Assembly (NCBI RefSeq): GCF_019649055.1 | Contig: NW_026570290.1 | Coordinates: forward strand, 620,001 to 684,000 | Source of the DNA: Paramacrobiotus metropolitanus | Taxonomy: Eukaryota > Tardigrada > Eutardigrada > Parachela > Macrobiotidae | Reading direction: 5' to 3' | DNA length: 64,000 bases | Program-made: the position numbers and the translations under genes | Part shown: positions 29,842 through 50,769 of the stretch, one piece after another | Layout: each line of letters begins with the position of its first letter | How positions within the stretch are numbered: position 1 is the stretch's first letter | Notes under the pieces: model-generated | Databases searched by the model: none | The model's input: the letters and a program-made list of their open reading frames with translations, nothing else | What the model was told of the DNA's origin: nothing

Positions 29842-32538
29842 ATGAAAAAATCTGCAGCCTGCTTTCTTGTGGTTTGGCTGGGACATTTTGTGTACGTAGC
29901 CACGGAATCAGCTGAGGAGTGTGCCGCCACCCGAGATAGATGCTATACCGCCATCTCACAGATTTCGGCCAATGCTACATTTCCTTGGCCACCTGAGGGA
30001 ACGTCTGCCAGTATGCGTCAATCTACTCCCGATGGAGATCGATATTGCAGGTACAGTAATTCTTTGGCAAATTTTGAGTATCCTTTAGACATAATTTTCC
30101 GGTACAAACGCGTTACGCAGGCTTATTACTGCCACTCAACAAGGCGGTAATAGACTGTAAGGCTTAGGCCTCGTCCCGAATCTGTAGCGCATCTCGTTAC
30201 GGTACAGGGCACCACCGTCCCAGAATAGGAGATACGCGATACGGTATGTCGATTCTCGCTTCGCGTACCTCGTTACCCGTGAAAAGGTTCGGGACGGGGG
30301 TATGCTCCGTATCCTAAAGCGGAGCATACCCTCATACATATTCACAACTCTCTGATACGGTTTCCTGCAAACCGTATGTCAAAACCCAAATAAATTGCGC
30401 GGATGGTTTGCAAATTGCAAGTGCAACTGATCTGTCTCATCAGTCATCAGTGCATCACCAACTACGGGGTACTAACTGAGATGCCAAACAAAAACTTTCA
30501 ATCCGGGGAACAACCATTTCACAATGCAGACTAAGAGCTAACTAGAATGACGGCATGAAAACAATCAACCCAAGAATCGAAATTCCTCAAACAAACTTCG
30601 AATTTTTCACCACATAAAAACTGGTAAGCAGTGCGATATGTGACCGGAGCGATGGGACGCAAAAATACAGCGACACGGCGCTAAAGCTGAAGATTCGATA
30701 CAGAAACCGAAAGCGAGCCCCGTTTCCGATATGCGTAGCCTATACGTAGCGTTGGTGGCGCGCACCAAAGAGGGTCCCATTTCTGTACTGCAGCGAAGCT
30801 AGCTACGGTGCTGTATCGTAACGAGATGCGCTACAGATTGGGCCTTAAAAGCAGCCGGTTAATTCCGGTGCGACGCCACGATAAGGCAAGCCGTTTACAA
30901 GCGCAAAAATACAAGGCTCTCGCTGTGTTTTATCACAGCACTTATCTTGGTTGAGCTATAGCTTTGCTACCACATATTATAGCTTAAAGAGAGAATACAA
31001 AATTTTAAAGTATTTTAATTTGTACTGAATGTACTTGTAAGTCGATCGAATGCTTTGCCGCGATACCTATTGTATGCACTATGCAGTATGTAGTTGTACA
31101 CAACGGTTTTCGGTCCGGACTAACCGCTGAACTGACTTTGAATTCTGACTGAGGCTAACTCAGTTTACTTATAGAAACCTATAGGAATTTACTTCCAAAT
31201 TTTGTTAAAAGTTAAGCACCAGAAAACTTCAATTTGTTGGTCTTTTGGCTGAGCTGAGGAAAGTTAATTTTCAAGGACATAAATCGACATAAATCTGCAA
31301 TAAAACCTGTCGCCACCTGTCAAAATTGCAGGTATTTAAAGGTTAAATAAACATGTAAAGTGTATGGGTCAAAGCATTTTCTGTTACAACGTTTTAGTAT
31401 AGGAATGCAGCGCGATAATGCTGCTTGTGTGTCCGGAACTGTTGAGAAGCAGGCTGATCTTGATGATGTGCTTTTAGTTTGTGCATGGTTGAGCAGATCG
31501 TTTTGTAGGCTCTTGTAAACTTTGTCTCCTTGTACTTGCACTATACAAAAAACGTTGATCAACGAACGTGTTTGGCAAAGTAGAATTTTTCAAAATAATT
31601 TTTTCAACAAATTATATATAAAATCAAAGCATGTGAAGTATATACATAACACATACCTGTACTTGTACGCTGGATCCTTAACCAGGGCGTCCAGTGCATT
31701 ACGAAATAACCGGAATCCGTTAAAGCAAATGTATTTAAGCTAGACTATACAGAGTTACAGACTAATAGCCTATAATTCTCCAGTCCTACTATACCAATCG
31801 GAGCGAAAATATCGAGATAAGCGTCCTCAAGAGCCACGCTAAAGCGGTGCGCTTGAGCGCCGCTTGCATTACTTTGACGTTCTCGATGGCATATTTTTAC
31901 ATACATACATGAATTCTTTGTTGGTGCTCCTTTTACAACAAGCCGCTTTAACAGTTATTTCAATGCCACCGGAAGCTGTTTGCGGAATCTGCGCACCCGC
32001 TGCCCGGCATCGAACCTTCCGCCGTTTGACGCTACCATTGAAGGATGGTACATGGTGCTGTATTACGAAGCCATGGCTAAGATTTGTACCATTTTCAACC
32101 CTTTACGATTGTTAGCGGCTAAAACGCACTGCGATCTGCAAACGAATACTACCGACTTTACCGTTGAAGTGGTGTTGGGGGAGAACCTCAACGAGTTCAT
32201 TACCAATGCCACTACCGAGGAGAAGGCCCAAGCCGCAGTGTGCCGGTTAGTGTCATCGCTGTTTATCCTAACGTAATTCGATAGCCGTTGCGCTTATGTA
32301 ACTCTCATTTATATCAATTTCTGTATTTTAATTCAACCAATCATGTTACTCAGTATTTAACAGAAAAATTCAGGAGTTTTTGCCACGAATGGGCAATCCA
32401 GAAAACAGCAGCAGAACGCCGTTGTACTCACATTTAGTGGCAACATGCGGGCAGAAGGCCATTGACACCATGGAGGACGCGATGGAGTGGACTCTGATGA
32501 GCAGGAATAGCCCGTGTAAATCCAAAGGAGCCCATTGA
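29842..32538 (+). CDS. Ten-cysteine secreted protein A
   Basis: Exons are 29842-30050, 31955-32245 and 32364-32538, with phase 2 at both junctions; about 224 residues. Exon 1 gives the signal peptide MKKSAACFLVVWLGHFVYVA, then EECAATRDRC and ending DRYC. Exon 2 carries GSCLRNLRTRC, EGWYMVLY, AKTHCDLQT and DFTVEVVLG. Exon 3 has EFLPRMGNPE, ATCGQKAID and a last Cys near the end. Ten cysteines outside the signal peptide are shared with genes B, C and D. There is no membrane helix after the signal, so it is predicted to be secreted. The Cys-rich, intron-matched pattern recalls nematode DUF19-like secreted proteins only loosely. The first intron (1.9 kb) is swollen by a Harbinger-like MITE absent from gene B. 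Confidence 0.75.
30167..30844. mobile_element. PIF/Harbinger-like MITE in intron of gene A
   Basis: The element is flanked by TTA on both sides (30164-30166 and 30845-30847). Its ends share CTGTAGCGCATCTCGTTACG close to the left end and the matching inverted copy on the right. The left repeat begins GGCCTCGTCCCGAA and the right, read inward, begins GGCCCAA. Gene B's intron keeps the empty site (GTAAGGCATAAAAGC against GTAAGGCTTA/TTAAAAGC). There is no transposase frame, so it is non-autonomous. Length is 678 bases. Confidence 0.75.
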
Positions 32539-33796
32539 GTAGCGTGTTCTGCAAAGACTACTTACAGAATATGGCACTGTTTTGTTATCGCAGCGACTCG
32601 TACGCGTTTCTATAACGGAGGTGCGGAGTTTGCTCACAGATCTTGTTGGTTACAACTGCTTATAATTAGATGTGATTTACATGGCAAGAACTGCCACACC
32701 ATTATGTTCGCAGCAGCATCCATGCCGCTCTTCGCTCCATGATGCACTTTATGGTACGGGTTTATCTGTCTTGCTCTAATCTCTCTGATAAATTGAATCT
32801 CATCAGTTAACTGAGAATTCGTTTAACGCTCGCGAAATTGACATGCAAAAAATACGTGGTATGTATTGTGCATACAACGTATTTAGTTACAAATTCAGGC
32901 GAGTTAAGTAGCTTCTGAGACGACACTAGCTGTCGAATTATTTTTGCCGTTATCACGCACCAAAGTTGCAACATTACTCAGTGTTTTTTTCGTGGAAGGA
33001 AGCGCGTAAGATCGAAGGTGTCCAGTCGGGGTGTTAAAGAATCTTAATGTATGGCAGCGCGGTTTTTATCAGCTTGTCGCGTCTTACATTTTGCGATATT
33101 AATATGAGCGGTGTGCAGTATCAGACTTCATTGCCATGTCGCGCATGACAGTGAAAGACAAACTGGTAATTTTGGCATGTAAATACATCATTTACGGCTA
33201 CAATTTAATAAGAGCACATTTTGTTGACTACACAAGGTGCAAGGGACAACATAAAACAGTAGGTTAGCTAGGTGACAGCAAATGCATACGAAAAGCAGAA
33301 AACGGCCAAAATTAAAAACAGGCAACGTGGCTTAAACAACTACTCCATAAGCATGTTGTCAGTTATTTGGTCCTAATGAGAACTGGCGCTCTATAAATGT
33401 GTGAGAAAGTCGGCGTTCCAGGCCCGTGAATTTTCGATGTACGTGTAGTACATAAGGCATTGCGCTGTATAATGTTAAACAATATTTCAAACAGTAGAAG
33501 GGTGTGATCTATATAAGTAATTGTAAATTACAACCGGAAATGCACTCCAGATTATTATAGTGCAACAGAATTAATGCCTGATGTTAATCGCCCTCCCACT
33601 CGTTATCACCCGCAACAATCAATTGCCCGAGCGAATTTAACAACAAAATGTATTCAACGCTAGGAGAAGCGAATAATTATAGTTACTCGTATTTAGAAAT
33701 CTTACCGCCACGCTGGCTGCATAGAAACCCTGCTTCCTTTTGGCACTTTCACTGAGGTATATGGTACCGGTATATACAGCTATACTGTAATAAAAT
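32539..33796. other. Intergenic between paralogues A and B
   Basis: This holds the 3' region of A and the promoter region of B. From about 33000 it is a diverged duplicate of the flank upstream of A. No additional coding frame is supported. Confidence 0.45.
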
Positions 33797-35481
33797 ATGA
33801 AGAAATCTGCAGCCGGTTTCCTTGTGGTTTGCCTGGTACACTTGGTGTATGTAGCTACGGAATCAACGGAGGAATGCGCCGCACTGCAACACCGATGTTT
33901 TGCTGTCATATCACAATTTCCCAACATCACGTTCCCTTGGCCGTCTACCAGCCGACTTTCACAGCCACCTGGTTTTGATGGGATCCGGTTTTGCAAGTAT
34001 TACTCTCAGTTCTTTAACAAATTCGAGGATCCTCCAGTCTTTAGGCAATATATCCCCTTACGTGTAACACAGGCTCATTAGAGTTCCCAGGGCAGTGTAC
34101 TGCTACGTAGCAGACTGTAAGGCATAAAAGCAACACGCTTGCGTTCGGTCTCACGTCAAGCCGTTTAAAAGCACAGTGATTTACCTAAGCTTATGGACTC
34201 CACAGGCTGATATTTATCATTAGCAACGTACTTCGGTAATAATGATCCTCTCTTATAACCAACGATGTATAAATTAACGATAGGGTAGAAGAAATCTAAG
34301 ACTACTTCTTATTGATTTGTGTTTTATACAAATCGATCTAATGGGATGGAAAGGTTTTCCGAGTGCATGTAGTATGTGCACAACGTTTCTACTTTTTATG
34401 TTGCATCAGAAGACTTTAATTCATTTTGATCTTTTGTTTGAGCCGATTAACGTGTGTTTCAATGCCAACGTTGTCAATAAATACAGTAAACACATACAGG
34501 TAAATAAATATACTGGATCCTTAATCGGGCGTCCCGACGAACACTAAACATGCCGGGTATCCAAAATAAAACAAATGCACCTACGTGTGTAACAGACTAA
34601 TAACCGCATCCGCATTTCCCGGTTTACATGCGGCAAACAAAGTTGAGCCAAGACGCGCGTACCGAACGACAAAACAGACGACGCCTATGCAGCCTACGAG
34701 TCGTACAGCAACCTGCCTTTGAGCGCCGCTTGCCTGAATATTGTTCTAGGGGAAACTGTTTTTTGCCTTTATTTATGTCTAAAATCGTATTGTCACACAC
34801 ATAAAATGATCATACTGTATGCTGTATAAATCCTTGTTGATGCCACGTCTACAAGAAACGTTTTATTAGTTATTCCAATGTCACTGGAAGTTGTCTGCGA
34901 GAACTGCGTAGCCGCTGCCCGGCATCCAGCCTGACGCCGCACCAAGCCAGCGTCGAAGGATGGTACCAGGTGTTGGTTAACGAGGCCATGGCGAAGTCTT
35001 GTACCATTCTGGACCCCATCAAATTCTTAGCGGCGAAAATGCACTGCGATAAGCAGACAAATACCACCGACTTTACCGTGGAAGTGGTGTTGGGTGAGAA
35101 AATTGACGAGTTTATTAGCAACGCCAACACTGAAGAGAAGGCCCAGGCCGCGCTGTGCCGGTTAGTATGATTTCTGACTCTGTCTACTCGTACCCAGTAG
35201 TAGTACACCGTTAAATTTACGTAATCTTCACCCATATTAATAATTTAATTCTTCGTAGAAGTATAACAAATTCAGTTAATCATGTTGCTACGGTCTGTTA
35301 CAGTAAAATCCAAGATTTTTTGCCGCGAATGGGCGATCCTGAAAGCCAAAACAGAACACCGTTGTACACAGATTTGGTAGCAAAGTGCGGACAGGATGCC
35401 ATTGACACTATGGAGGACGCCGTAGAGTGGACGCTAATGAGCAAAAAATATAGCCCATGTAAAGCTCAAGGAGCACGTTGA
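33797..35481 (+). CDS. Ten-cysteine secreted protein B
   Basis: Exons are 33797-33996, 34870-35160 and 35304-35481, phase 2 at both junctions, about 222 residues. The signal peptide is MKKSAAGFLVVCLVHLVYVA, followed by EECAALQHRC. Exon 2 is exactly 291 bases as in A and C, and carries GSCLRELRSRC, EGWYQVLVNEAMAKSC and AKMHCDKQTN. Exon 3 has FLPRMGDPES, AKCGQDAID and SPCKAQ. All ten family cysteines are present and no stop interrupts the frame. Its first intron matches that of A without the MITE. It sits in the same orientation between A and C, as expected from tandem duplication. Expression and function are unknown. Confidence 0.77.
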
Positions 35482-36319
35482 GCAGTGTGTCCTACAAAAT
35501 GGCTTACAGATCTGGTCATTATTTGTGTCTATCGTTGACGTTGAGACATATTATTAACGGGATTGCGGAGTTTGTTCACGGATATTGATGTTCGTACTCG
35601 CTTAGTTTTGATATGAACAGAAATTGGGATTGCTTCATAATTCTGTTCCTTGGGGAATTTGTACCACTTCTGCAATATGATGCGTTTTATGACGCAGGCT
35701 TTTTTGTTCCTCTTAACCTCTCCTATAAAATTATCAAATTTTATTGATCTAATGAGAGAACTTCTTTGGTTTAACCGAAATAAAATTAATGTGTAATGAG
35801 CTGGTTAGTGCAACAGGCGCACAAAAAAGGCATCTGTTAAAATCAAACCGGCAACTTGCCATACAATCTGCCGGTGATACAGAGAACTGATGTTCTGCAA
35901 CTGTAAAATCAATGTACCAGAAATACGTCAGTGTTTGTAACTTTCATAATTGTAGATTCCAGTTCAACTGCCCACCCCTACCGATACAATATTTATATGT
36001 AATATGTGCAACCGTAGTTTCTAACCGCAAACTGTACTTGTACTTTCCATGCCTTTAGTTGTTTCAAAATGCAGTATTACAAATACATACCGTTTATACC
36101 TGCTGTATCAATTGTGGATATCAATCGTAGCGCGATCATTATCAAGGCGCAACAACTGGCAGTAGCCAAAACATTTTAAAACGCATTTCCCACCGCTTAG
36201 TACGCTGCCGAAGAAGACCTGAACGGTTTACCGCTTCGCAGGCCGCGTGCAAACAAACAAACATCGCCTCCGTTGTGCTGATTCTGCTATCTTCCGTATT
36301 TTAAAAATCATAAGAAAAC
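35482..36319. other. Intergenic between paralogues B and C
   Basis: No gene or clear repeat seen. Promoter sequence for C is expected near the right end, and the start codon at 36320 is preceded by an AT-rich stretch. Confidence 0.4.
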
Positions 36320-37324
36320 ATGATGAAATTTGCAGCCGGTTTCTTCGTGGTCAGCTTGGTACATTTTGTGTACGTGGCCACGGAATCAGCAGAGGAATGC
36401 GCTGCCATTCGACAGCGTTGTTACGCCACCATGGCACAGTTTCCCAACATTTCCCTCGCCTGGCCGCCTCCAGGCGGTGGTACTTCTTCCAGCATGCTCC
36501 AGGCCACCCCTGATGGAGATCGCTTTTGCAGGTACCTGTCGTCTAACTATAAATATTATTATATTATTATGAAATGTACTTAGTTATGTAATAATGTTAA
36601 AATGGCAGTTTGTCATACGGAGAGTGTTTTATTACTAATTCTCTTGTTGGTAAAAGCTATTGCGTAATGTTCCTTTTGAAATTTTTCTTTCAATGAAATT
36701 TATTAAGTTGCTAAATTAAAATATTAAATTTAATTTAAATTTATCAGTTATTCCAACGCCACCGGAAGCTGCCTGCGGGAACTGCGAACACGCTGCCCGG
36801 CTTCCAACCTGACGCAGCATGAGGCCATACACGAAGGATGGTACACGGTGGTGGTTAACGAGCTCATGGGCAAGATTTGCAATCGTTTCAACCCAATAAG
36901 GTTCTTAGCGGCTAAGATGCACTGCGATCGGCAAACCAATACCCGGGACTTTACGGTGGAAGTGGTACTGGGTGAGAACATCACCGAGTTTGTTGTCAAT
37001 GCCAACACCGAGGAGAAGGCGCAAGCCGCGTTATGCCGGTTAGTATGATCGCTATCTGCCTTACCGGCAAACAGTGTACTCTGGACATAGCGGTTTACGA
37101 TATCTATGTAATTCTTATATAATTTCTACCCCAATTATATTATCTCGGTTTTTAACAGAAAAGCACGAGAGTTTTTGCGCATTGGAGATCCTAAAAGCAA
37201 AACCGCAAACCCAAAGTATACAGATTTGGTGGCAAAATGCGGGCAGGATGCCATTGGCACTCTGGAAGACGGCATGGAGTGGACGCTGATCGGACGTCTT
37301 GTCCACTGTCAAGAAGGACACTGA
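36320..37324 (+). CDS. Ten-cysteine secreted protein C
   Basis: Exons are 36320-36531, 36748-37038 and 37159-37324, phase 2 at both junctions, about 222 residues. It is the most compact copy, with introns of 216 and 120 bases. Signal peptide MMKFAAGFFVVSLVHFVYVA precedes EECAAIRQRC and a Pro-rich SLAWPPPGGG loop. Exon 2 carries GSCLRELRTRC, EGWYTVVVNELMGKIC and AKMHCDRQTN. Exon 3 has FLRIGDPKS, AKCGQDAIG and a terminal VHCQEGH. The ten cysteines align with A, B and D. Predicted extracellular; function unknown. Confidence 0.78.
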
Positions 37325-37791
37325 GTAGCACGTTTTCGAAATTAATTACAGAAGCGGTCAATGTACTTGTGTACCAGTTATTCTAATACAAACACCTTCA
37401 TGGGTATTAGCACTTCGGTCAATGAATATTTATTGCCCCAATTCAAATTATACATACGTAATAATGTTCTTAGCAGAATCTTTCCTGCTTTTCGCTATGT
37501 AACGCATTCTGTACATGTGGTATCGTGTATTCCGGCATAATCCTCATTCGATAACATTGTCACATCTTATCGGTGTTATGAGTGTCCACAGCATGTACCT
37601 AGAAGTGTAAACCGATATCATTAAATTTCACCTGACACAGCTCAGAAGCGGAAAGGATAAACATTTTAATGGTTTATTGTCGTGGTATGCAGCTAGCAAA
37701 GTCGGTCTCTTGAACCAAAGAAATTTAGGAGTCTGATGATTGGCGTTGTTTTTTTTTCATTTTCCCCCAATTTATTTGCAAATCGTAAATA
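37325..37791. other. Intergenic before the SLC13 gene
   Basis: The 3' flank of gene C and the promoter region of the carrier gene. A T-rich tract lies at 37749-37760, shortly before the start codon at 37792. No gene is supported. Confidence 0.4.
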
Positions 37792-40497
37792 ATGGGTATC
37801 AAACAGCTCTTGAGCTCAACATGGCGAATTGCCGTTTTCTTCGTTATTCCGCTAGCAATTCTGCCGTTTCCTCTTGTGGTGAATACGCAGGTAATTATTA
37901 CAGCTTCCATTAATTCTGTTAAAAAATAATCAATTTTAACGAGCAGCTAAAAGTAATGACATCAATTAAAACGGTGTTTCGTTTTTCGCTCCAGTAGGTA
38001 CGAAAGGGAATACTGTTATTATTTTATATAATCATAATAAAACCAAATATTATTTACACAATGCATTACAGCTGGCGGGAGCGACGTATGTCTTGATGAT
38101 CAACATAATCTTCTACATCCTCATGCCGATTCCCTTGGCCATCAATGCCATGCTGCCCGTTTTCCTGTATCCGCTTCTGGGCGTTCATCCTGCTGGGCAA
38201 ATCGCAACATGGTTTATGAATGTATGTAGTATGTACTACTGGAGCTCGTCCTAACTGCGGTACAAAGTTATAGTACAAAGTAACTGCTGAATGGATTATC
38301 ATCCTTTATCACAGGATCCGACAACATTGCTAATATCCAGTATGGCGTTCGCTCTGGGCATCGAAGCCGTTAACCTCCATGAGCGCATTGCTTTAAAAGT
38401 CTTGACGGTATTAGGACCTCGGCCAGAACGGTATTTTGAGCGTTTTCCCAATGCCGCACTCGCACAGCATCATATAAATTTTTGTAGTTTACTGTTGGCG
38501 TTTCTCATCGTTTCCGGTTTCTTGTCCATGTGGATAAGCAATATCGCCGCCGTGGTGATGCTGCTACCCATCGTCCGCGCTGTTAATAAAGACTTGTGCG
38601 AACAAGAGAACAACATCACCGGAAATGATGCTGTGTCGATAAACAGTAAAGCGGTCAACGAAGAGTTCGCTGAAGATCCACCGGCAAGCACGAAAGGTAG
38701 TAAATTTAGTTTTAGTACCGGCTATCTGCGTGCTGACAAACGTTTGTCTTGTCTATATAACTGCTCGCCGAATACTCCGTAACTTGTAAATGATTGTAGT
38801 CCAAAAGTTCACCATGGGTCTGGTTTTATCCATCATCTATGGGGCTTCCATTGGCGGCATGTCGACACTGATTGGGGCTCATCCGAACATCGTCTTCAAA
38901 CTAGTTATGGATCAGTAAGTATACAACATACATATATTGTTGACGGAGAATCGTGCAGTTTTTACGATGTTGATAGACCATTCAGTAGTATAGTATGGGC
39001 AGTCCTTTATGTTAAATAAACAACAGTTTTCTAGAATTTACGGTGACGTGACCGGTGTTAATTTCGCAACACACATGATGATCTGCACACCGTTGGGCAT
39101 TGTGTCGCTGCTGATTGTCTGGCTGCTCATGACCATCATGTATGTGCCGGATTACATCAAATCCTGCTGCAAGAAACAGGAACGCACACCGGAAGAAATG
39201 CGAGCACAAGACAAACTGCATAAAAATTTAAAGGGTCAATACGAGAAACTCGGATCAATTAGGTAGTTGCCGTTGTGTACGAAGTTCACCGGGATTTTAC
39301 ATACGGCATAGTACCTCACAAATTTATATTATCTTCGTTTTTACGTGCTCAGCACTTTCAAACAGACTTCATCATAAATTTTGAGTTCAGTCTGTTGCAG
39401 CTATGTATAATCGTAAGTATTAATACACCTTATTGTTATCACTGGGTCATTATTTACGGTTCTTTATTGTAGATTTGAGGAAGGATCCGTGATATTCTTT
39501 TTCTTATTCCTGCTTATGTTATGGTTCTTCCGGAGCCCTAGCGTATTTCCTGGATGGGAAATTGCCTTTAAAAAGGGGTAGTGGGCCACAATCTTGAACC
39601 GGCCCACTGTGGAAAAATTTACCTGACTTTGACTTATTTGCAGTTACGTTTCCGACAACGCGCCCACATTACTGTTGGTCGCCACGCTCTTTGTCTGGCC
39701 ACGGAGTCTTAAAGCACTGTGGACTACCGGCAAACACGACCCCATCCTGACGTGGCCCATCATGCAGCGGCGTTTCCCGTGGGAGATCTTCCTGTTTGCC
39801 TGTGGCACCAATGTCTTGTCAGAAGGGTCGACAGTAACGCAAATCAGCTTTTCCATCAACAATACTTCGCGAATTCTGGTAACAAAATTTTATTTACTTT
39901 ACAGCGCGGTGGAATTGCGGAGTGGACAGCCGAACAGATGAACGCACTGAGCGGCATTCCTCCGTGGGCCATGATGATTCTCATCAGTCTAGTTACGGCG
40001 ATCTTGACGGAATTTATCGGGAATTCTACACTGGTTACGCTGCTGTTACCAATATTAGCAACATTCGTACGTTGAATTTTGTATTGGATACAATTATGCA
40101 ATCACGTACAGCTTTAGCACGTTTGTGTGTACTCGTACACTTCATTATTGTAATTCATGTTTTAACTTTGAAGGCTACGCAGTCGCTGGTGAATCCGATC
40201 TATTATCTCCTCCCGGCCGCTTTATGCACAATGCTGTCCTTCATGACGCCGGTGGCTGCGCCCATTACCGCGTTAGTCTACGGCGAAAAACTGGTAACCC
40301 GGCGTGAAATGTGCGTAACCGGATTGATTCCTAAAATTACCTGCTTTATCTTGGTTATACTGTTTGTTAATACATTCGGCGATCTGGTGTACAATGTGCA
40401 CCATTTTCCGCAATGGGCAAATCTTAGCGCAGCTAATAATGCCAGCTCTGTTCACAGAGTTCGCGTTCTGAATTTGTTTCTTAATGAACCAATATAA
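37792..40497 (+). CDS. SLC13-family carboxylate/sulfate transporter, 9 exons
   Basis: Exons: 37792-37890, 38072-38221, 38315-38696, 38800-38914, 39035-39262, 39473-39577, 39644-39878, 39905-40066 and 40174-40497. All phases agree, giving about 599 residues, the usual size. Family landmarks in order: IPLAINAMLPVFLYPLLGV, the first hairpin motif MWISNIAAVVMLLPI, ASIGGMSTLIGAHPNIV, PGWEIAFKKG followed by YVSDNAPTLLL, then the second motif TEFIGNSTLVTLLLPI and NPIYYLLPAAL near the end. SLC13 proteins move Krebs-cycle dicarboxylates, citrate or sulfate with sodium across the plasma membrane. The two SNT-type sodium/substrate motifs are altered here to SNI and GNS, so substrate or ion coupling may differ. 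A decayed copy of its 3' end lies at 46.96-47.3 kb. Confidence 0.92.
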
Positions 40498-40868
40498 GAA
40501 GTTGCCTAAGCAAAGGTACTACAGAGTACCATACTTCTCTCGCGATGTCAAGCTGTGCTTAATTTCGCTGATGCTGCATACTTTTGCAGTTTTGCTCACC
40601 TGTGTTTGTGTCTTTAAATCGTATCCCTTTAAAGTTTTATGCATCGAAATAATATAACTTAAGACGTGCATGGTCGCAGGGAATTTATTCGAAGCAGAGA
40701 GAATCGGTGCCATAACTGCCACCGTAAGAATTTGTCGCCAATGCCATATAAAACAAAAAGGTCATCTCAAACCGCTTAGTTACCAAGCACGGTAGTTGTA
40801 TTTGTTGCATGAAGCGCCCACTATAAATAAAAAGCTAAGAAATGTTCAGTGTGTTCGGCAAAAAACCA
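40498..40868. other. Convergent 3' flanks
   Basis: This sequence lies between the carrier's stop and the stop of the Cys-rich peptide on the other strand. The part to about 40640 is matched by the relic at 47.1-47.3 kb, so the duplication included the 3' untranslated region. A minus-strand AATAAA lies at about 40683. Confidence 0.5.
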
Positions 40869-41195
40869 TTAAAATGGTCGATTATTCAAGTTAGCTAAAT
40901 TTGGGCATTCATGTGTAAAAAATGTACACTGTGAGCTCCTAGGAAAAAACTCTGGTTCAATGGGGAATAACGAGCGAGATGGGTCTTTGCGGCTGGGTGC
41001 CGGGTGGAATCGGTCGAGTGATTCCACTAGAAAATCTCCATATCCACGGCACAGTCCTTCGGTGCTTGATCCCCCGATACAACAACATGTGTATCCGGAA
41101 GGACACGGCCGATACTGGGTGTGGCAGGTGACAATTTGTGCTGCAGTGCAGGACACGCAACTACACAGAAGCAAAACGATCCATTTCGTACCCAT
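40869..41195 (-). CDS. Single-exon Cys-rich secreted peptide
   Basis: The frame starts best at 41195 with MGTKWIVLLLCSCVSCTAAQ, a strong signal peptide. An upstream in-frame ATG at 41258 would bury it. The product is about 108 residues. The mature N-terminus has CHTQYRPCPSGYTCCCIGG, then GLCRGYG: C-x6-C-x5-CCC-x10-C. The CPSGYTCC run resembles half of a granulin/epithelin module, or other small disulfide proteins. The C-terminal half is Pro/Arg/Ser-rich with SRKDPSRS and ends with two more cysteines (SSQCTFFTHECPN). It is intronless, unlike its neighbours. Role unknown; extracellular defence or signalling is a guess. Confidence 0.6.
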   Translation of the reverse strand: MGTKWIVLLLCSCVSCTAAQIVTCHTQYRPCPSGYTCCCIGGSSTEGLCRGYGDFLVESLDRFHPAPSRKDPSRSLFPIEPEFFPRSSQCTFFTHECPNLANLNNRPF

Positions 41196-44100
41196 AGTAA
41201 ATGGACAGGAGTTTCGCACAGTCACACACAACGGTAGCTGTAGCATCAAACGTGTCAAAGTTTAAGAAAAGAATATCGAAACGGCAGCTAACGGCCTAAC
41301 GCTTTCGCTTTTCAGTTCATCTAACTTTACTGCTCCTGAGCTGTCCACTCTTCCTTGCCTTAAATTGCTGTCTGACTGCCTTTGGATGTTATGCCAAACA
41401 ACCTGAGCGGAAAAATATGTTACGTTGCACTTGTTATGCTCTAGCCTATCACCGTGCAAGAAAGTAAAGAAAGATCATGATAACAGAATCCAGTTTATAG
41501 TTAAAATTTGGAACGTCTCGCAGTCTTCGTCTCTGATTGTTATTGTTGCTGATGGCAAAACCGGTTGCCCGGTATGTAGCAGTCTTAGTTACAAAGCATT
41601 TGCTAAGATAATTCTTGCGATACAAGCACTACAGTGTACTTGTATAAAGTCTCAATAGTATGTAGTGTACCGTATATAAGCCTGTACGGACAGAAAAGTA
41701 TAAAATTAATTTACCCGAGATTCGTAAAATACGTATATATAATTTAAATTGCGTAGAGTTGTACGGAGTAATTATCGTAATACAATGCCTAAACATACAG
41801 AAATCGTTGCCAAATTGTCTGTTTGGTGGAGTTATGGGCCATTTACAGCTATCTGTATAGTGTATGCTGCATTACACATCCTTCCATTCTTCTTTCGGAC
41901 AGGCTTCGACTTAACGTAATATTATATATATATTATACAAGAGTCATCTTCGGCTTCGCCTCAGATGCTCTTGTGGTCTACACTCTACAGTCATGTCCTT
42001 GACAAATAATTCTGTTCGCGCTGTTCGAAACTTCAGTCAGCTTGCTCTAATCAGGAAACAGCGTTATATAGCTGATCGGTTCATTTTATGTGAAACAAAA
42101 TAGTTACTAGTAGTAGCACGACTAATAATAGGAGAGCGGTCAGCGGTGCTAAGTTTCTAATACTTCTACTTCGCTAGTCGCTACTTTTTAATAACTGGTC
42201 CGTGGAAACCAATTTTGATCGAGGACAATAATATCCTTTGTTCGGTAATCAGTAGGCTTGGTCGGTAAATACAGTATTGTGAATTTTTTGATAATTTTTT
42301 GATTTTTGATTCTGTCGGCAGCAACGAGTGTGTACTGTGTAGTGATAACGAGCAAAAGAGATCACGTTGTCCTAGTCACCGAACATTAGTAACAGCAATG
42401 GCGGGTCCTGTAATTTCCTGTACGCAGCAGCCCTGATTAGTGATACCTAAACACTGGTTGGCTCTTTCCGAATTTCGATTGTTTCTGGATAACTGTTTCC
42501 AAAACATTTTTTGACAGAGATTTTAAACATCTAATGGCGTTTGCATTTACACGGGATGTCGTTCTACCCGGTACTAGGTAGTTAACATTTTTTGTTTATT
42601 GGCAATTGCCACCATCAACATAAAAACTAGCCCTCGCGGTCACACTGTTTGTGGGAAGGGGTGGTAAGGCCGGTGGTAAATTTAGGATCTCGGACCAAGG
42701 CGACCGTTCCCTTTATTTAGTAAGCGATTGGTCGGTGGATAGACATGCCAGCTTTTGCACAGTTCTGTTCGTTTGACAGCTGGAGCATTAGCGTTGTACT
42801 AGACGATGATAACGGTTCTGCTCTTATCTGGTCTAAGCCACTAACACTAAGATAATGCTCTTTCTGAATATCCCTTCCCTAAAACTTGAGCTTCTACTCT
42901 ACAGGCCTGATCGACGGTCAGTATGTTTCCTGTAACTCAGTAGGTCTGGTTAGTGGATAGTGTAACCTTTGTGCGGTTCTGTTCATTCGACAGCTCAAGA
43001 ACTTTGTTAGCATCGAACAGTGGGTACTGGGCAAGGGTTCCGTTGGGTTCCGTTCTCTTATGCCGGTCTGGTCAGTGAGTTTTTTATTGCATAGAAAAAC
43101 TTACGATCAGTAAACTTTCGCTTGCAAACTATGGTTAGACACTGCCTGTTTTCTCACTACCACCGATTGGACGAAGTGCGATTACGCCTTCTACCTAATA
43201 TGTAAAGGAACTATGCAGGTAAATAGGAATACGTTCGCAAACTTTCGCAATTCGCATCCTCAAGCACTTCTTTAGTTTCATAGCTTTCATAATGATCACC
43301 CTGCAGCCAAAGGATTTGTACTTTATACATCGGTGTGAAATTGTTTATGAGATATAAGGAGAATAAAATTTTAAAATGTTTAATTGCATTCACATGGCAT
43401 TCAAAAGCCACATTATGAATCGATATCTTAACCCAAATTTGCATGTAAACGCGTGAGTATACCGTAGTATGAGTATTAAGATCGTTTTACACCGAACCAA
43501 ACAAATTTTTTGGTATTTAAGTTAATTTTAGATTTTCTGTTAATTGTAGATCTAAGTGTTTTGTAATGCACAGAGAAAAATGTATAAGGACGCGGAAAAG
43601 CTAAAAAGTTCCAGTGCAAAAGCGCTTTCCGGTCCCCGAAACCAAAAGTAAATTTCTTCGCTTTAGAGCATTTTGTTGAAACGTGACAAAGTTGAAAAAT
43701 TTTTCAAAGTTTTTTTGAAAAAATTAAACCATTCCAGAAGCTTTAAAAACAAACTTAAGTTGCTTTAAAACCATTTTTGTGTTATTTAGACTTTTGGTGC
43801 ACGACAATTTGGATTTAAACTTTTTTTTATTACACTACATACTCTGCATTTGAATATTAGCTGCTCCACGCAACAGTGTTTTATGTAAAAGGTCTTCCAA
43901 GGTCACCTTGAACTGATGCCTGTACCGGTACCGGCATCCGAGCGATGGTCCAGGGCAGATATTTTTGAAAACAAAATCCATGTGGGACCCTTTTGGGACA
44001 TGCTGAGTTGAATGGTGAAATCGGTTTTTTGATTGGCGTAGCGGTTTTTTCTAGCCACGTTCCACGGGGCGGCCGATCATAATATAGATCTATTTCCTTG

Positions 44101-44253
44101 ATATATATAATTATATAGGTAACCGGTAACACATTTTCCTTTATCATAGTGATGTATTGTACTGTGTTGGTTGTAGCTTTTGGAAACAAAATAATAAAAA
44201 GTTAAATTTATGGTTTGCCAGAGTTTGACAACGCTTTTTCGCTATACAAGTAC
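41196..44253. other. Gene-free segment with diverged repeats
   Basis: No coding frame is supported over about 3 kb. A hairpin lies at about 41939-41974 (CAAGAGTCATCT pairing with AGATGCTCTTG). Two related blocks occur near 42705-42800 and 42935-43020, sharing the order AGT(A)AG, GGTGGATAG/AGTGGATAG, then TTCTGTTC and TCGACAGCT or TTGACAGCT. This may be old repeat DNA inserted within the duplicated block. Confidence 0.45.
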
Positions 44254-44850
44254 TCAGCCAGAATGCAGCATGTCTACGACAGCTGCATTCGCATTTCGCA
44301 GTGTCTCCAGACTATGCTAGCAAACTGCCTAACGTGCTGTACGGATGGTGCACCGTTGAGCTGAACGCTGAACACAGCGCTGGCACAATTCTGCACAATT
44401 ATGAGCCTGCTACATCTTATGGTGTCCAAAGTGTACTGCGATCGTCAGAGCGGTCAGACCGGCAGCCAAGATTTCAAGGTGGAAAAGGTTCTTAGGTATC
44501 ACTTTGAGCGAGTACATCGACAATATCGTAACCGCTGCGCAGGGCGGAAAAAGCGTCTATATTTGAGGAAATTAATTTTAATAAAAGGAGCGAGCGACCT
44601 CCACGTCATCCAACAAGGACCACACCCCACGGGTGGTTTTAATTAGCGAAGGTCGGAAGATGTTTCTAATTTACAGAAAAGTTCAGAGGTCCTTTGGCAT
44701 AACACCGGATTTAACAAGGAATCGCCTTGTTCCCGGATTTAACAAGGAATCGCCTTGTTCCCGGATTTAACAAGGAATCGCATTGTTCAGCAGTGCAGGC
44801 AAGACGTAATGAAGAAGTAATGTGCAGGACTCTGCTTGTTTACTCGGGCC
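44254..44850 (+). pseudogene. Decayed ten-cysteine gene (copy E)
   Basis: This aligns with exons 2 and 3 of gene D. Shared segments include GTACTCAGCCAG, TGTACTGCGATCGTCAG, GGCAGCC, GCAAGACGTAATGA and the 3' flank beyond the stop. Insertions and deletions shift the frame several times, and a stop interrupts the EGWY-equivalent region (ACGGATGGTGCACCGTTGAG). Three tandem 28-base units have expanded inside the exon 3 relic. No signal-peptide exon is recognisable upstream. It is the inactive partner of gene D in the duplicated block. Confidence 0.75.
44705..44788 (+). repeat. Three tandem 28-bp repeats
   Basis: Units start at 44705, 44733 and 44761. Each begins CCGGATTTAACAAGGAATCG, with one base change in the third copy. 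They lie within the exon 3 relic of pseudogene E and have no counterpart in gene D, so they expanded after the duplication. Confidence 0.9.
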
Positions 44851-45396
44851 CTACACGATAATGAGCTTTGATATCTACGTTTGATCCACGTGAATGTCGG
44901 ATATTTGCGTCTCTTTGATCTGTTTTTAAGATCGTCATTACATAAATCACATTCGATGGCTTGTTTTACGTTGTACGATAAGCTCGTGCGAAATTCTGCA
45001 ACGCAGTCCAGTTTACATAACCATTTAGCAGAGAAGAAGTAGCTCTATAAAACTTCAAAATCCCATAACATAAAAAGTAGTGTATCTATAGGTACAGTAA
45101 CTCAGCAATGTGACACCCTGCTTTCCATTGGGATAGGGAGTCCATTCTCAACTGCGTAGGGTTCTCTAAGCATCCATTCAGGGATAGGTGCACCGTGCTC
45201 GTGGGAAAGTAGAATCGCTAAATAAGCTTATAATACTGTTTGTTTTTAGCATACCTATGCAAACATCGGAGCGGCCTACATTCTGCGGCCTGGTAGTACC
45301 GATGTCGAAATTTTACCGCATTGTATTTGTGCATATAAAAATTCTTATTATTCGCCACATCCATAGAAGTATTGTAACGATTGGCGAATATACGGT
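44851..45396. other. Flank upstream of GRL 2
   Basis: Non-coding. It corresponds to 48760-49345 upstream of the GRL pseudogene. Matches include ATAACTCAG-type stretches and CATTTGGGGATGCAT against AGCATCCATTCAGGG neighbourhoods, much diverged. It should contain the promoter of GRL 2. Confidence 0.35.
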
Positions 45397-46743
45397 ATGC
45401 TATTCACCATGTTCGTTATGACCAGGGCAAAACGAAGAACACTGTATTCGAGAGTTCAGAAAGCCTTTACGATTCCTGATTTTCTCATCACGTGCCTCCC
45501 TTTGCTGTGCCTTGTTGGTTGGTCGGAGCTTCCTCGTCATTTCAAGCAATGGCGCGAACAGCCGGCGTCCATCGTCCAAGCGCTGTGGTGTTTCATTGTT
45601 TTCAGTTTATTATGTTTCACGGGTTTAACCATTTTTATCTTCACCCCCAAGCTATCCGCGTTTTCAACCTCTAGTGACCTTGTAGCCTCAGGATCCCAGA
45701 TACTCCTTTGCGTGGTGGCACCAGTCGAAATACTCTCCTGCATATGGGGACTTCGCAATATTCGAGCGCGAGTTGGAGAATCCCGAAGTCTCTACACAAA
45801 ATACCTGCTACACGTTGACATAATTACGGTACGAATCTTTATGATTTCAGCGTTAACGATTTTCGCCGGTTCAGGCTGTGCTCCAGCTGCCCGTGTGATC
45901 TCTTTGGGCATGCATTTAATCAACGAGCCATACAACATAACGAGCCAGCGTTATACGTTTTGGGAAGCGGCGCGCTCGTTATCGCCATTAACTAATTTTG
46001 TTCCCAGACTGTATACGAATGCAATGCAGTTATATGTTACAACGTGGTGTCTGACACTGGGAATATTATTCCGCCGCATGGGAATGCAAGCCAAACGAGG
46101 CGTTACCAGAGAACTCCTCAGTGATCACGATGAACTGTGTGGTGTACTAACAGAAATTGCGAATGACATTAGTTCTGCTGTGTTCTCCATTATAACCAAA
46201 ACGTTTTCCTTAACAATGTTCGCATTGACGTCTGCCCAATCATTTCATAGAGATAGTTTTTATTACGCCTACACGTTCGAACGGGAAATGGCGGCATCTG
46301 TTATACCTATTGCCATAACCGGTGTCTTTATTTTTGCGATGGTCTACACCTTTGAGAAGGTAACCTAATGCGACTGTAATCGGATAATTACCTGTTTTAC
46401 ATGATCATTATATTGATTACTAAAATGGTGTATGTAACCGAATAGGTACAAGATCTTCGCAGTGTTCTACAAACATGTCAACTATCCAAACAAAAGCATT
46501 CATTGGATATGGAACGGATAATGTTGAAAAAGACCAATACGTTGTATTTTCAACCACCTGGATTTCACTTTGCTGGCATTTGCATAATCGATCGTAGATT
46601 TATGGTGTCGGTAAGCAGAATAACCTAAATCACTAATTAATGGAGGTTTTATGAACCATAGAAGTGCAGCTGATGAAACGTTTTTCTTGCAGATTATTAG
46701 CCTCTTTACAACCTACACACTGCTAACATGGGACCATAAATGA
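45397..46743 (+). CDS. Gustatory-receptor-like 7TM protein (GRL 2)
   Basis: Exons are 45397-46359, 46446-46610 and 46693-46743, all phase 0, about 392 residues. Exon 1 contains most helices: IPDFLITCLPLLCLVGW, VQALWCFIVFSLLCFTGL, QLYVTTWCLTLGILFRRM, and the end FIFAMVYTFEK. Exon 2 begins VQDLRSVLQTCQL and contains YFQPPGFHFAGICIIDRR. Exon 3 is IISLFTTYTLLTWDHK and carries the TY-x-LLTW motif. Structure and motifs equal those of GRL 1 and GRL 3. Two in-frame ATGs follow the first within eight codons, so the exact start is uncertain. Predicted chemoreceptor by family resemblance. A broken tandem copy lies at 49.3-50.8 kb. Confidence 0.78.
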
Positions 46744-46959
46744 CTATAACGGATACATCGTTGGTTTTGTCTCCGAATAATAAACGAGGTTGACTGCTTA
46801 GTTGAGAGCTGAAATAATTCTGCTGTTGTAACGAAAACGCTGTTTTGGCAGGCTGTTGCACTGCACCTTTAGTGAGTTGGTATGAACACAATAAAATTAT
46901 TATCTGCACAATCAACACTGGACTGATTTAACTTTTGCCACGATTTGATACAATATTTC
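46744..46959. other. GRL 2 3' flank
   Basis: Short non-coding spacer. It contains CCGAATAATAAACG about 40 bases past the stop, which could serve as a polyadenylation signal. Confidence 0.4.
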
Positions 46960-47300
46960 TTTCAGGTTGTTCTGTAAGGACATACGAGATTATGCGATAC
47001 ACATTTTACTGTCACAAGAGTATCCCATTTTCTGTTCTGTTTGTTAATACATATGTTGTGACAATTTTGTTGGACAATGTGCAACATTTCCGCAATAGGC
47101 AAATTTGGCGTAGCTGTTAATGTTAATTGTTTCTTAGGTTCCCTTAATACACAAGCATGAATTTACCTAAGCGAACGTACTGCCCCTCGAGCTATTAAGA
47201 TATGTTTTTTTGCTGATGATGCATACTGCTATTCCAGTTTTGCCCACATATGTTTGCCTGTGCGCCGTACAACTTTAAACTAGTTTCTTAATCTGGATTA
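46960..47300 (+). pseudogene. Relic of the SLC13 3' end
   Basis: From 47030 the sequence follows the last SLC13 exon and 3' flank (40355-40640). Matches include CTGTTTGTTAATACAT, ACAATGTGCAACATTTCCGC, AATAGGCAAAT, TTGTTTCTTA, TACCTAAGC and CTGATGATGCATAC. Multiple deletions destroy the frame. The first 80 bases (46963-47040) also match 60868-60945. It marks the left edge of the second copy of a duplicated block. Confidence 0.7.
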
Positions 47301-47518
47301 GAGTACCAAAAACTTGCACAGATCAGCAGTGAGTCAGCAAAACTGCAAAACGCAATACTAAAAAACCGGCAAATTTTTCGAAAGTTTTCCGCTACCGTTA
47401 GTAATATATAATGCATTACTTATGCCGAGGAAATCTGGAGTGTGAAACACATGTACAAACGTACTGTATTTATTTTAGTACATACAATTGATTTTCCGTA
47501 CAGAATTTGTGCATCAAA

Positions 47519-48759
47519 ATGAAACTGGTAATTATAGTCATTTTACATGGATTTCTGAGCATCTTGATTTCCGCAAGCCGGACCGTTACTGAATACTGCA
47601 GCGATATCAAGCAAAAATGTGAGACGTCTATTGTCAGTTTTCCAAATATCTCACTACCGTGGTCCTACAGTAACGCGTACATGAGATCCCATCCTCAGGA
47701 TTCCGAACTCTTCTGCAGGTTTGTATTATTGTATTTTGCACTTAAACATACTCTTAATCTTTTTCCTATGCATAGTTACTACTGATAGCGATGGCAAAAC
47801 CGGTTGACCGGTATAATCTTACCACGCATTTCCGAAGACACCGTGCAAGTACTTACTGCTTACCGGTACAGTGTATAAGAATGAAGCGCATACCGCTCGC
47901 TAAAAGCCTCCTTTGCGGAAATAAAAGCATAAATGTACCCGCAAAATAGAGATACATACTCTGTAAATTGTGTAAGGTAATTAAATACAACTGTTAGGGC
48001 AACAGCCAAACCTAGAGCCACACATCAAATCACAATTTCAAACAAAACATGGAATGACTTTTAAATGATTCTATCATGGCACATTCGCTTAAAGCAGTGC
48101 GGCACTAATTATGACGAAAACGAGTCCCTGATTATGGGAACCGGATACACATTTTTTGGCATTGTACGGTATTCCTGTACCTTTTGAAACCAATATGTAC
48201 TAAAATCTGTGGCTCGTCATATTTCGACCCCTTTTTTTCGTTACACAGGTACTCAGCCAGCAACGCAGCCTGCTTACGGCAGCTGCACTCGCAGTGTCCA
48301 GACTATGCCGGCACACTACCGAAAGTGCTATATGGATGGTACACCGTGGAAGTGAACACCGCGTTGTCCAAACTCTGCGCAATTATGAATCCGCTGCAGT
48401 TTATGGCGGCCAAAGTTTATTGCGATCGTCAAACCGGCAGCCGAGATTTCACGGTGGAACAGGTCTTAGGCGCCAATTTGAGCGAGTACATCGAGAACAC
48501 CGTGACCGCAGTAGATGGTATAAAAAGCGTGTGCAGGTGGGGACACTTAGCAAATAAACAGACTTCCGATACATTAACAACCACATGCGACTGTATGCAG
48601 CTAATATCAATAATTTATAGAAAAGCGCAAGGATTCCTACAGATGGCACCGGAAACAGAGAACCGGATTATCCAAAAGTGCGGGCAAGACGTAATGACCA
48701 TAATGAACGAGGGGATGCGGAAAACTTTACTTGTTTATCCCTGCCCATATCGGCTTTGA
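47519..48759 (+). CDS. Ten-cysteine secreted protein D (diverged)
   Basis: Exons are 47519-47718, 48249-48536 and 48621-48759, phase 2 at both junctions, about 208 residues. Signal peptide MKLVIIVILHGFLSILISA precedes EYCSDIKQKC and ends ELFCR. Exon 2 carries ACLRQLHSQC, YGWYTVEVN, SKLCAIM, AKVYCDRQTG and DFTVEQVLG, and ends VCR. Exon 3 has FLQMAPETEN, KCGQDVM and YPCPYRL. All ten family cysteines and both intron positions are kept, though the sequence is well diverged from A, B and C. That conservation argues for a constrained disulfide fold. It is the intact partner of pseudogene E. Secreted; function unknown. Confidence 0.75.
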
Positions 48760-49345: not shown

Positions 49346-50769
49346 ATGGTGTATTTTACTTCATTAGGCATGATCGTTATTCTTTATGGCCATGGTACAA
49401 CGCAAAGCACTACAATGAGTGTCAAGAAGAAGACGTTTGTGATTCCTGATTTTCTCATCACGTGCCTCCCTTTACTGCGCCTTATTGGCTTCTGGGAGCT
49501 TCCTCGTCAGTCCAAGCACTGGTTCGAACAGCTTGCATCCATAATCCAATCGCTGTGGTCGTTCGTTGTTTTCGGTTTGTTATGTTTGACATGCTTGACC
49601 ATTTTCGTCTTCACTCCCAAACTATCAGCTGCGTCCTCATTTGCCAGTGACCTTTTAGTGGTGGGATCCAAAATAATTCTTTGCCTGCTGGCTCCCTTCG
49701 AACTATTAACGTGCATATGGGGGCTTCGTAATGTTCGAGTGCGCGTCAGCGAATCCCGAAATCTCTACACAAAATACCTGCATGATATTGACAAAATTGT
49801 GATACGAATAATTATTAATGCAGCATTGACGATCTTCGCTGGTTCGTGCTGCGCTCCAGCTGCCTGTGTGATCGCCATCGGCATGTCTCTAATCAACGAT
49901 CCATACAACCTAACAAGCCAGCGAAATACGTTCTGAGAAGCGGCACGCTCGTTAGCGCCATTAACTAATTTTCTTCCCAACTTGTGTACGAACGCATTGC
50001 AGTTATATTTTACAACATGATGTCTAACACTTGGGATATCATTCCGCCGCATGGTAAGCTAAACGAGGCGTTACCAGAGAGCTCCTCAGTGATCACGATG
50101 AATTGTGTGGCGTGCTAAGAGAAACTGAGGACGATATCAGTTCCGTTGTTTTCTCCATTATAACCATAGCGTTTTTAGTTGACCATGTTTGCGCTGACAT
50201 CTGGCCAATTATTTCGCAGTTTTTATTATGGCTACACATTCGAACGGGAGATGGCGGCATCGTTCATACCCAATGCCATAACCGGTGTGTTTATTCTCTG
50301 TATGGTTTGCACGTCTGATAACTTTATGCAACGAAATCAAGCGGGCACCTTCCTGTATTACACTAATTATTGCTAATTATTGCTATTAAAATAATTATTA
50401 TTGTCACACTTTACAATTATTGCTTATTAAATCCGTTTGTGTGTTTGTATAAGTGCAAGATTTTGGCAGTGCTGTACAAGGTCAAATATCCAAAAAGAAA
50501 CGTTCTCCGGATTTGGAGAGCATGCTTTTGAGAAAAGACCAATATGTTGTATTTTCAACCACCTGGTTTCCACTTTGTCGGCATTTGTATGATTGATCGT
50601 AAATTTGAGACGTCGCTAAGCGGGAACGACTTCAATCACTATTCCACAAATTCACAGAGATTCAAGAACCTTAGAGTAGAATACTAATCGCTGCTGCATT
50701 CTTTTCTTTGCAGATTATCGGGCTCTTTACAATCTATGTACCTCTAGCGTGGCACCGCTATAATAACTG
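49346..50769 (+). pseudogene. Broken tandem copy of GRL 2
   Basis: The frame opens MVYFTSLGMIVILYG and matches GRL 2 from IPDFLITCLPLL through LTSQR. It then stops at 49937, where the parent's Trp (TTTTGGGAAGCG) has become TGA. A second Trp-to-TGA change follows (ACATGATGT near 50019), then a deletion shifts the frame near 50053. Relics of exon 2 (about 50455-50615, still with the PPGF-type region) and exon 3 (about 50715-50769, ending in TGA after a TIYVPLAWH-like motif) remain in order. The upstream 190 codons are intact and well conserved, so inactivation looks recent. A read-through or truncated product cannot be excluded. Confidence 0.88.

Follow-up and report, generated by a model that had tools for sequence, protein, structure and literature searches.

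A large family of probably secreted ten-cysteine proteins in the genome of the tardigrade Paramacrobiotus metropolitanus

Four genes, here called A to D, lie in a stretch of 64,000 nucleotides of contig NW_026570290.1 of the tardigrade Paramacrobiotus metropolitanus; this whole stretch is called the window, and the coordinates of A-D and their neighbours are positions within it. The four genes belong to a real, large family of probably secreted ten-cysteine proteins that carries neither a Pfam nor an NCBIfam label. The family is new but of a familiar kind, and is more notable for its size and coherence than for its mechanism. We favour, with reasonable but far from full confidence, the interpretation that A-D are members of a large multigene family of soluble extracellular binding proteins, helical, disulfide-stapled and N-glycosylated, which evolves by birth and death.

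When the models of A-D were rebuilt base by base, the coordinates given for them in a preliminary description of the window proved to be exact (Table 1). Each of the eight introns has GT-AG ends and lies in phase 2, the frames are open up to the stop, and the ten aligned cysteines are distributed over the exons as three, five and two; the intron phase and the cysteine distribution are as had been described. One further cysteine is found within the leader in each of A and B. The motifs listed in that description (GWY, CD-x-QT, DFTVE-x-VLG and CGQ) were likewise all seen in the four proteins. The identical middle exon attributed to A-C holds for its length (291 bases, 288 in D) and not for its sequence, as the exon-2 DNA of B and C is 78% and 77% identical to that of A over 300 bases. 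At the protein level A and B are 70% identical, C is 66-68% identical to A and B, and D is 36-40% identical to A-C. The fraction of guanine plus cytosine in A-D is 0.42-0.55 in the exons versus 0.23-0.42 in the introns. Intron 2 of D (48537-48620) has 84 bases, a multiple of three, and is open in frame, and its retention would add 28 residues including two cysteines.

Table 1. Ten-cysteine genes and neighbouring features in the window
Feature	Position (strand)	Parts	Product or state	Basis or remark
Gene A	29842..32538 (+)	exons 29842-30050, 31955-32245, 32364-32538	224 residues	open spliced frame, GT-AG phase-2 introns, ten aligned cysteines
Gene B	33797..35481 (+)	exons 33797-33996, 34870-35160, 35304-35481	222 residues	same basis as A
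Gene C	36320..37324 (+)	exons 36320-36531, 36748-37038, 37159-37324	222 residues	same basis as A
Gene D	47519..48759 (+)	exons 47519-47718, 48249-48536, 48621-48759	208 residues	spliced model and intron-2 read-through
Decayed D-like copy	44250..44812 (+)	exon-2 remnant ~44250-44556, exon-3 remnant ~44769-44812	frame broken	blastn of D exons, repeat family D7
Receptor-like multi-pass gene, intact copy	45397-46368			five hydrophobic 19-mers
Receptor-like multi-pass gene, second copy	about 49406-50316		contains stops	
Gene between C and D	about 37812-40494 (extent by eye)			sub-cut-off similarity to sodium:sulfate symporter family on two of its exons

The family extends well beyond the window. 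When the genome that holds the window (169.8 Mb in 533 contigs) was searched with single proteins, B and D gave 59 and 62 matches with all exons counted, and two distant members gave at least 151 and 107, all of these numbers being lower bounds. At a minimum, exon 2 was located at 71 places; they are spread over 27 contigs, 19 being on contig C46 and 10 on C31, and identity falls to about 20%. These are exon-2 matches with an expect value (E) up to 0.01, copied by hand with neighbours merged and including the decayed copy of the window; C8:837794 (E 4.2e-4) is a further candidate outside them. Assembly copies may make the true gene number smaller, and an exon 2 too diverged to be matched could make it larger. 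Two near-identical pairs, L051 (C249) with L052 (C172) and L059 with L060 (both on C8), are probably unmerged haplotypes or recent duplications. In total 76 family loci were retrieved and modelled by a script demanding phase-2 splice rules, which returned exon 2 in 67 of them and the complete set of three exons in 46, so that 50 three-exon members including A-D were available. Among the nine loci left without an exon-2 model, eight have homologous exon-2 pieces in the six frames, often broken, and L047 has none. Some exon-3 starts in the models are over-long, and exon 2 of L005 was trimmed by hand for the cysteine table. At L039 (C46:922416-924876) exons 2 and 3 are on one strand and a match resembling exon 1, with cysteine 2, is on the other, so that exon 1 is apparently either inverted or a neighbour's. 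The broken copy L014 (C23) has a peptide stretch that by eye resembles one in L078 (C115), which suggests a repeat insertion; L078 and L079, both among the RGM_N genome matches treated below, have frames that by eye look reverse-transcriptase-like.

Intron phase was scored across the family on matches in all six frames of the fetched loci, with no splice rule imposed (69 exon-1 and 82 exon-2 matches in all), the denominators being the matches that contain the cysteine concerned. The profiles had been trained on phase-constrained models, and the test is to that extent not fully blind; the positions are fixed by the cysteine codons themselves. The donor of intron 1, a GT two bases past the third-cysteine codon, was found in 59 of 59 matches, and that of intron 2, a GT two bases past the codon of the eighth cysteine, in 62/66. 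In 64/68 the fourth-cysteine codon was preceded by an AG at a distance of exactly 22 bases, the next commonest distance accounting for 10. At the exon-3 acceptor of intron 2 the distance varies (best 17/67) and is uninformative. Both introns are in phase 2 at the same places across the family. Taken with the cysteine counts below, the predicted genes establish a three-exon structure with two phase-2 introns and ten fixed cysteines.

Seventeen members, 19-69% identical to B, were aligned; they were picked by hand from 35 full models (31 and A-D) with preference for clean ones and include no known cysteine loser. The ten cysteines and W48 are invariant in 17/17, and besides the cysteines only this one tryptophan and the start methionine are so, with one alanine and one glycine nearly invariant. 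In an automatic count over the three-exon members all ten cysteines were kept in 40 of 50, the cysteine table being without the row of L014. Five of the ten misses are truncated or mis-joined models (L020, L024, L027, L037 and L057, the two missing cysteines of the last being visible in the raw frame), and the other five are true changes or frameshifts (L008, L030, L032, L033 and L045). The total number of cysteines is even in 39 of the 50. Because L008 and L032 have each lost both cysteine 2 and cysteine 4, the comparison suggests a disulfide joining cysteine 2, in exon 1, to cysteine 4, in exon 2. The Fisher value for this co-loss is 0.0003 by script, with hidden or truncated sites scored as losses, and about 0.005 by hand on the same 58 rows with the hidden sites of L030 and L057 scored as present, uncorrected for the many pairs inspected.

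The ratio of nonsynonymous to synonymous divergence (dN/dS) is 0.19 for A-B and 0.25 for both A-C and B-C, at a synonymous divergence (dS) of 0.87-0.97, and because of these values A-C can be recognised, from codon comparison, as old genes held by purifying selection; against D the comparison is saturated. From 68 rows a quick maximum-likelihood tree was built, after removal of L011, L014, L053 and every row that lacked at least two exons. In this tree A-C group together with a support of 98 in the approximate likelihood-ratio test of the Shimodaira-Hasegawa type (SH-aLRT), and A-D group with three copies from C38 with a support of 100. Contig labels change 28 times on the tree, versus a mean of 49.0 when shuffled; good support was obtained for 24 of its 65 inner branches, with weak support at the deepest. 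In 21 of 70 exon-2 rows an additional CC stands between cysteines 7 and 8, and the 20 of these rows that are on the tree all fall within its C46-rich group of 26. The predicted members thus placed document a history of copies being duplicated locally and lost, which recurred on several contigs and left contig-biased clades. The preliminary description had spoken of a local expansion, which understates the family in view of the number of exon-2 places, and leaves out that A-C are old duplicates (dS about 0.9) and that one local copy has decayed.

The putative leaders of A-D, candidate cleavable signal peptides, have a hydrophobic core of 2.5-3.1 over nine residues, and no membrane-like stretch was found in A-D past the leader, the highest 19-mer reaching 0.73-1.01; at the other loci hydropathy was itself a selection rule of the exon-1 search. 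The proteins of the family are, to judge from these leaders, probably secreted. Sequons for N-glycosylation exceed the shuffled mean in every exon (43 versus 14.5 in exon 1, 95 versus 42.3 in exon 2 and 29 versus 13.5 in exon 3). The best exon-2 columns have sequons in 29/70 and 27/70 rows and stand shortly before cysteines 4 and 8, whereas 200 shuffles gave at most 5 in any column, so that N-glycosylation at these two sites has indirect support and may well occur. The mean hydropathy profile of the family has a z of 4.6 at 100 degrees, the alpha-helical period, and at most 0.2 at 160-180 degrees, which is indirect support for a predicted all-helical fold. The selected fold with fixed cysteines and introns that had been suggested for A-D can be upheld, its extracellular location as probable.

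In the interpretation that we favour, the mature protein would comprise about 185-200 residues past the leader and would be secreted, N-glycosylated, disulfide-stapled and mainly alpha-helical, with each member working outside the cell as a soluble binding protein. The stapled core would be constant, and the parts that vary (from cysteine 2 to 3, following cysteine 5, and from cysteine 7 to 8) might let the paralogues recognise different partners, in recognition, feeding or defence secretions rather than as enzymes. Local duplication has sorted the copies into contig-biased clades, with some of them decaying. No catalytic-looking set of residues is invariant in the 17 aligned members. A more specific version, in which the family is lineage-specific, possibly restricted to tardigrades, and serves extracellular recognition with a new all-helical ten-cysteine fold, is put forward only tentatively, as something that we doubt more than we believe. 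Several observations count against the binding, helical and disulfide-paired protein proposed here. The binding role is read from a pattern of sequence, and an enzymatic or structural role may apply in its place. The helical test was passed individually by only 8 of 34 windows, and two AlphaFold models, made from window-only alignment rows, are all-helical but without confidence, with a mean predicted local distance difference test score (pLDDT) of 45.4 and a predicted template modelling score (pTM) of 0.29 in one and of 47.8 and 0.40 in the other. The pairing of cysteines 2 and 4 is drawn from two double losses, and L045 has lost cysteine 4 alone, L030 has lost cysteine 2 alone with a frameshifted exon 2 that hides cysteine 4, and L039 is without cysteine 4 while its exon 1 is unmodelled and the opposite-strand match keeps cysteine 2. 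Lastly, the cysteine total is odd in 11 of the 50 members, five of them being truncated or frameshifted models and five others having the ten plus an odd extra one.

Between C and D the window holds a decayed D-like copy that had been missed in the preliminary description. By blastn its exon 2 is 73% identical to that of D over 308 columns with 5 gap openings and its exon 3 80% identical over 44; the exon-2 fragments fall in two frames in the protein search of the genome, and no exon-1 match to D was found by blastn within 41501-45400. In the exon-3 region of this copy a segment of about 28 bases appears by eye to be locally triplicated. The decayed copy and D each lie upstream of a receptor-like gene, for which no Pfam match above the cut-off was obtained, and the two pairs form a duplicated unit with a spacing of about 3.97 kb. 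Each pair has one intact partner: the receptor-like gene beside the dead ten-cysteine copy, and D itself beside the receptor-like copy that has stops. Fourteen of the 20 receptor-like matches in the genome are on the window's own contig, and more such relatives were noted at the window end and just beyond it on that contig (G000 C70:682435-704091). The matches elsewhere are on C153, C51, C44, C81 and C158, and a single weak exon-3 match on C158 (E 0.155) is the only ten-cysteine match listed on these five contigs. A functional link of the ten-cysteine genes to the receptor-like genes was rejected, as the other receptor-like contigs have almost no listed ten-cysteine match and the intact and dead partners are mismatched. 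Because of the mismatch in both pairs and the concentration of 14 of the 20 matches on one contig, the linkage of D-type copies to receptor-like genes is best read as hitch-hiking and not as a functional pair. On the minus strand at 40869-41261 lies a 130-residue open frame with a leader-like, cysteine-rich start, and a Pfam scan of the 108 residues from its ATG gave no match.

It could also be proposed that the proteins are structural components of an extracellular coat such as eggshell, cuticle or mucus, with the cysteines of the paralogues serving assembly and not recognition. Probable secretion, richness in cysteine and many clustered paralogues would suit such a role, and clustered cysteine-rich paralogues are a pattern known from chorion genes; against this, no repeat or low-complexity make-up was seen by eye in the aligned members, the cysteine number is mostly even, and a compact helical core with variable stretches would fit assembly less well, so that we regard coat proteins as unlikely. 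An equally helical, disulfide-rich and probably secreted product would be expected of carriers of small hydrophobic ligands that work with the receptor-like genes beside D, in the manner of insect odorant- or pheromone-binding proteins, and the duplicated unit lends this idea some appeal. The near absence of listed ten-cysteine matches from the other receptor-like contigs and the crossed intact and dead partners in the two pairs speak against it, and it is judged improbable. That the genes are an artefact, with chance open frames or decayed repeats taken for genes, can claim in its favour several copies with frameshifts or breaks, among them L014, L030, L058, L068 and the copy at 44250, but dN/dS of 0.19-0.25, a splice phase fixed in dozens of copies and ten cysteines kept at about 20% identity make it extremely improbable.

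Whether the family is a divergent branch of a known helical-hairpin family with the spacing C-x8-C-x7-C, namely the RGM N-domain, the GDNF-receptor domain or DUF19, bears directly on the earlier statement that no known family could be assigned, a statement that database comparison supports. Pfam scans were run at E up to 10 (one of them up to 1) on overlapping protein sets. They returned nothing for A-D and nothing above cut-off for the 17 members, among which RGM_N, the only Pfam family matched by more than one of them, appeared in 3/17 with a best E of 0.03. Nothing above cut-off was returned for seven proteins, five of them from the 17 (RGM_N at 15.0 versus 24.2 bits), nothing at all for seven more, partly hand-joined or partial, and for three consensus proteins the best match was Spectrin_7 at 17.7 bits versus a cut-off of 27. 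NCBIfam gave no match for B and D, and PDB at E up to 10 none for B, the A-D profile and the consensus; the 17-member profile had a single PDB match, the RGMA N-domain 4uhy_C, at E 0.63. The RGM_N matches and 4uhy_C are what favours a hairpin ancestry. The candidate homes were nevertheless each rejected. RGM_N (PF06535) is sub-threshold in the family, and its genome matches, one over and four under the cut-off, are at no family locus. The one over it, L077 (C206:45400-46300, 24.5 versus 24.2 bits), looks by eye like an RGM N-domain and is a candidate repulsive guidance molecule gene; the family exon profiles fail to recognise its RGM-like frame (best single-domain E 0.28), and four of the five RGM_N genome matches (all but that on C21) gave nothing at E under 0.1 against those profiles. 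The GDNF receptor domain (PF02351) was listed for no scanned protein, and its lone genome match, on C25 and over the cut-off, is at no family locus. DUF19 (PF01579), offered earlier as a loose analogy, did not hold up: it was matched by 0/4, 0/17, 0/7, 0/7 and 0/3 (consensus) of the scanned proteins, and its only genome match, on C3, reaches 15.6 versus 23.2 bits away from any family locus. A hairpin origin is accordingly given about as little credit as the ligand carriers. Among the titles and abstract openings found in searches of the open-access literature, none describes such a family.

With these genes a large, probably secreted family is added to the protein repertoire of the tardigrades, a family that is deeply diverged within one genome and under selection where this was measured, in A-C. 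The known special proteins of tardigrades are mostly disordered or heat-soluble. Should the lineage-specific recognition family be true, it would be among the larger secreted families of the animal by gene number, and birth-and-death diversification would have served tasks of the kind met in immune recognition, in secretions for feeding or in the interaction of gametes. A ready profile for locating and naming the family elsewhere is provided by its conserved intron phases and cysteines, and a fold together with a site of expression would make function directly testable.

Among known systems, the N-terminal domain of RGM, which is helical, aligns (4uhy chain C) over a 45-residue stretch around cysteines 3-5 of the family, but below cut-off, with the whole ten-cysteine frame unmatched and the genome's own RGM_N match elsewhere, on C206. 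DUF19, which we take to be the nematode T20D4.11-like family, is a secreted cysteine-rich multigene family of an ecdysozoan and in this resembles the ten-cysteine genes, but its profile is absent from all scanned proteins and family loci. The GDNF/GAS1 receptor domain is all-helical, cysteine-rich and extracellular, and differs in that its single match in the genome is outside the family loci. Insect odorant-binding proteins are secreted, helical and disulfide-stapled and form a tandem multigene family with six core cysteines, whereas the present family has ten, has no Pfam match above cut-off in the scans described and shows no consistent linkage to receptors. As far as profile comparison reaches, the family stands alone at the sequence level, and a relation in fold to helical cysteine-rich domains is possible.

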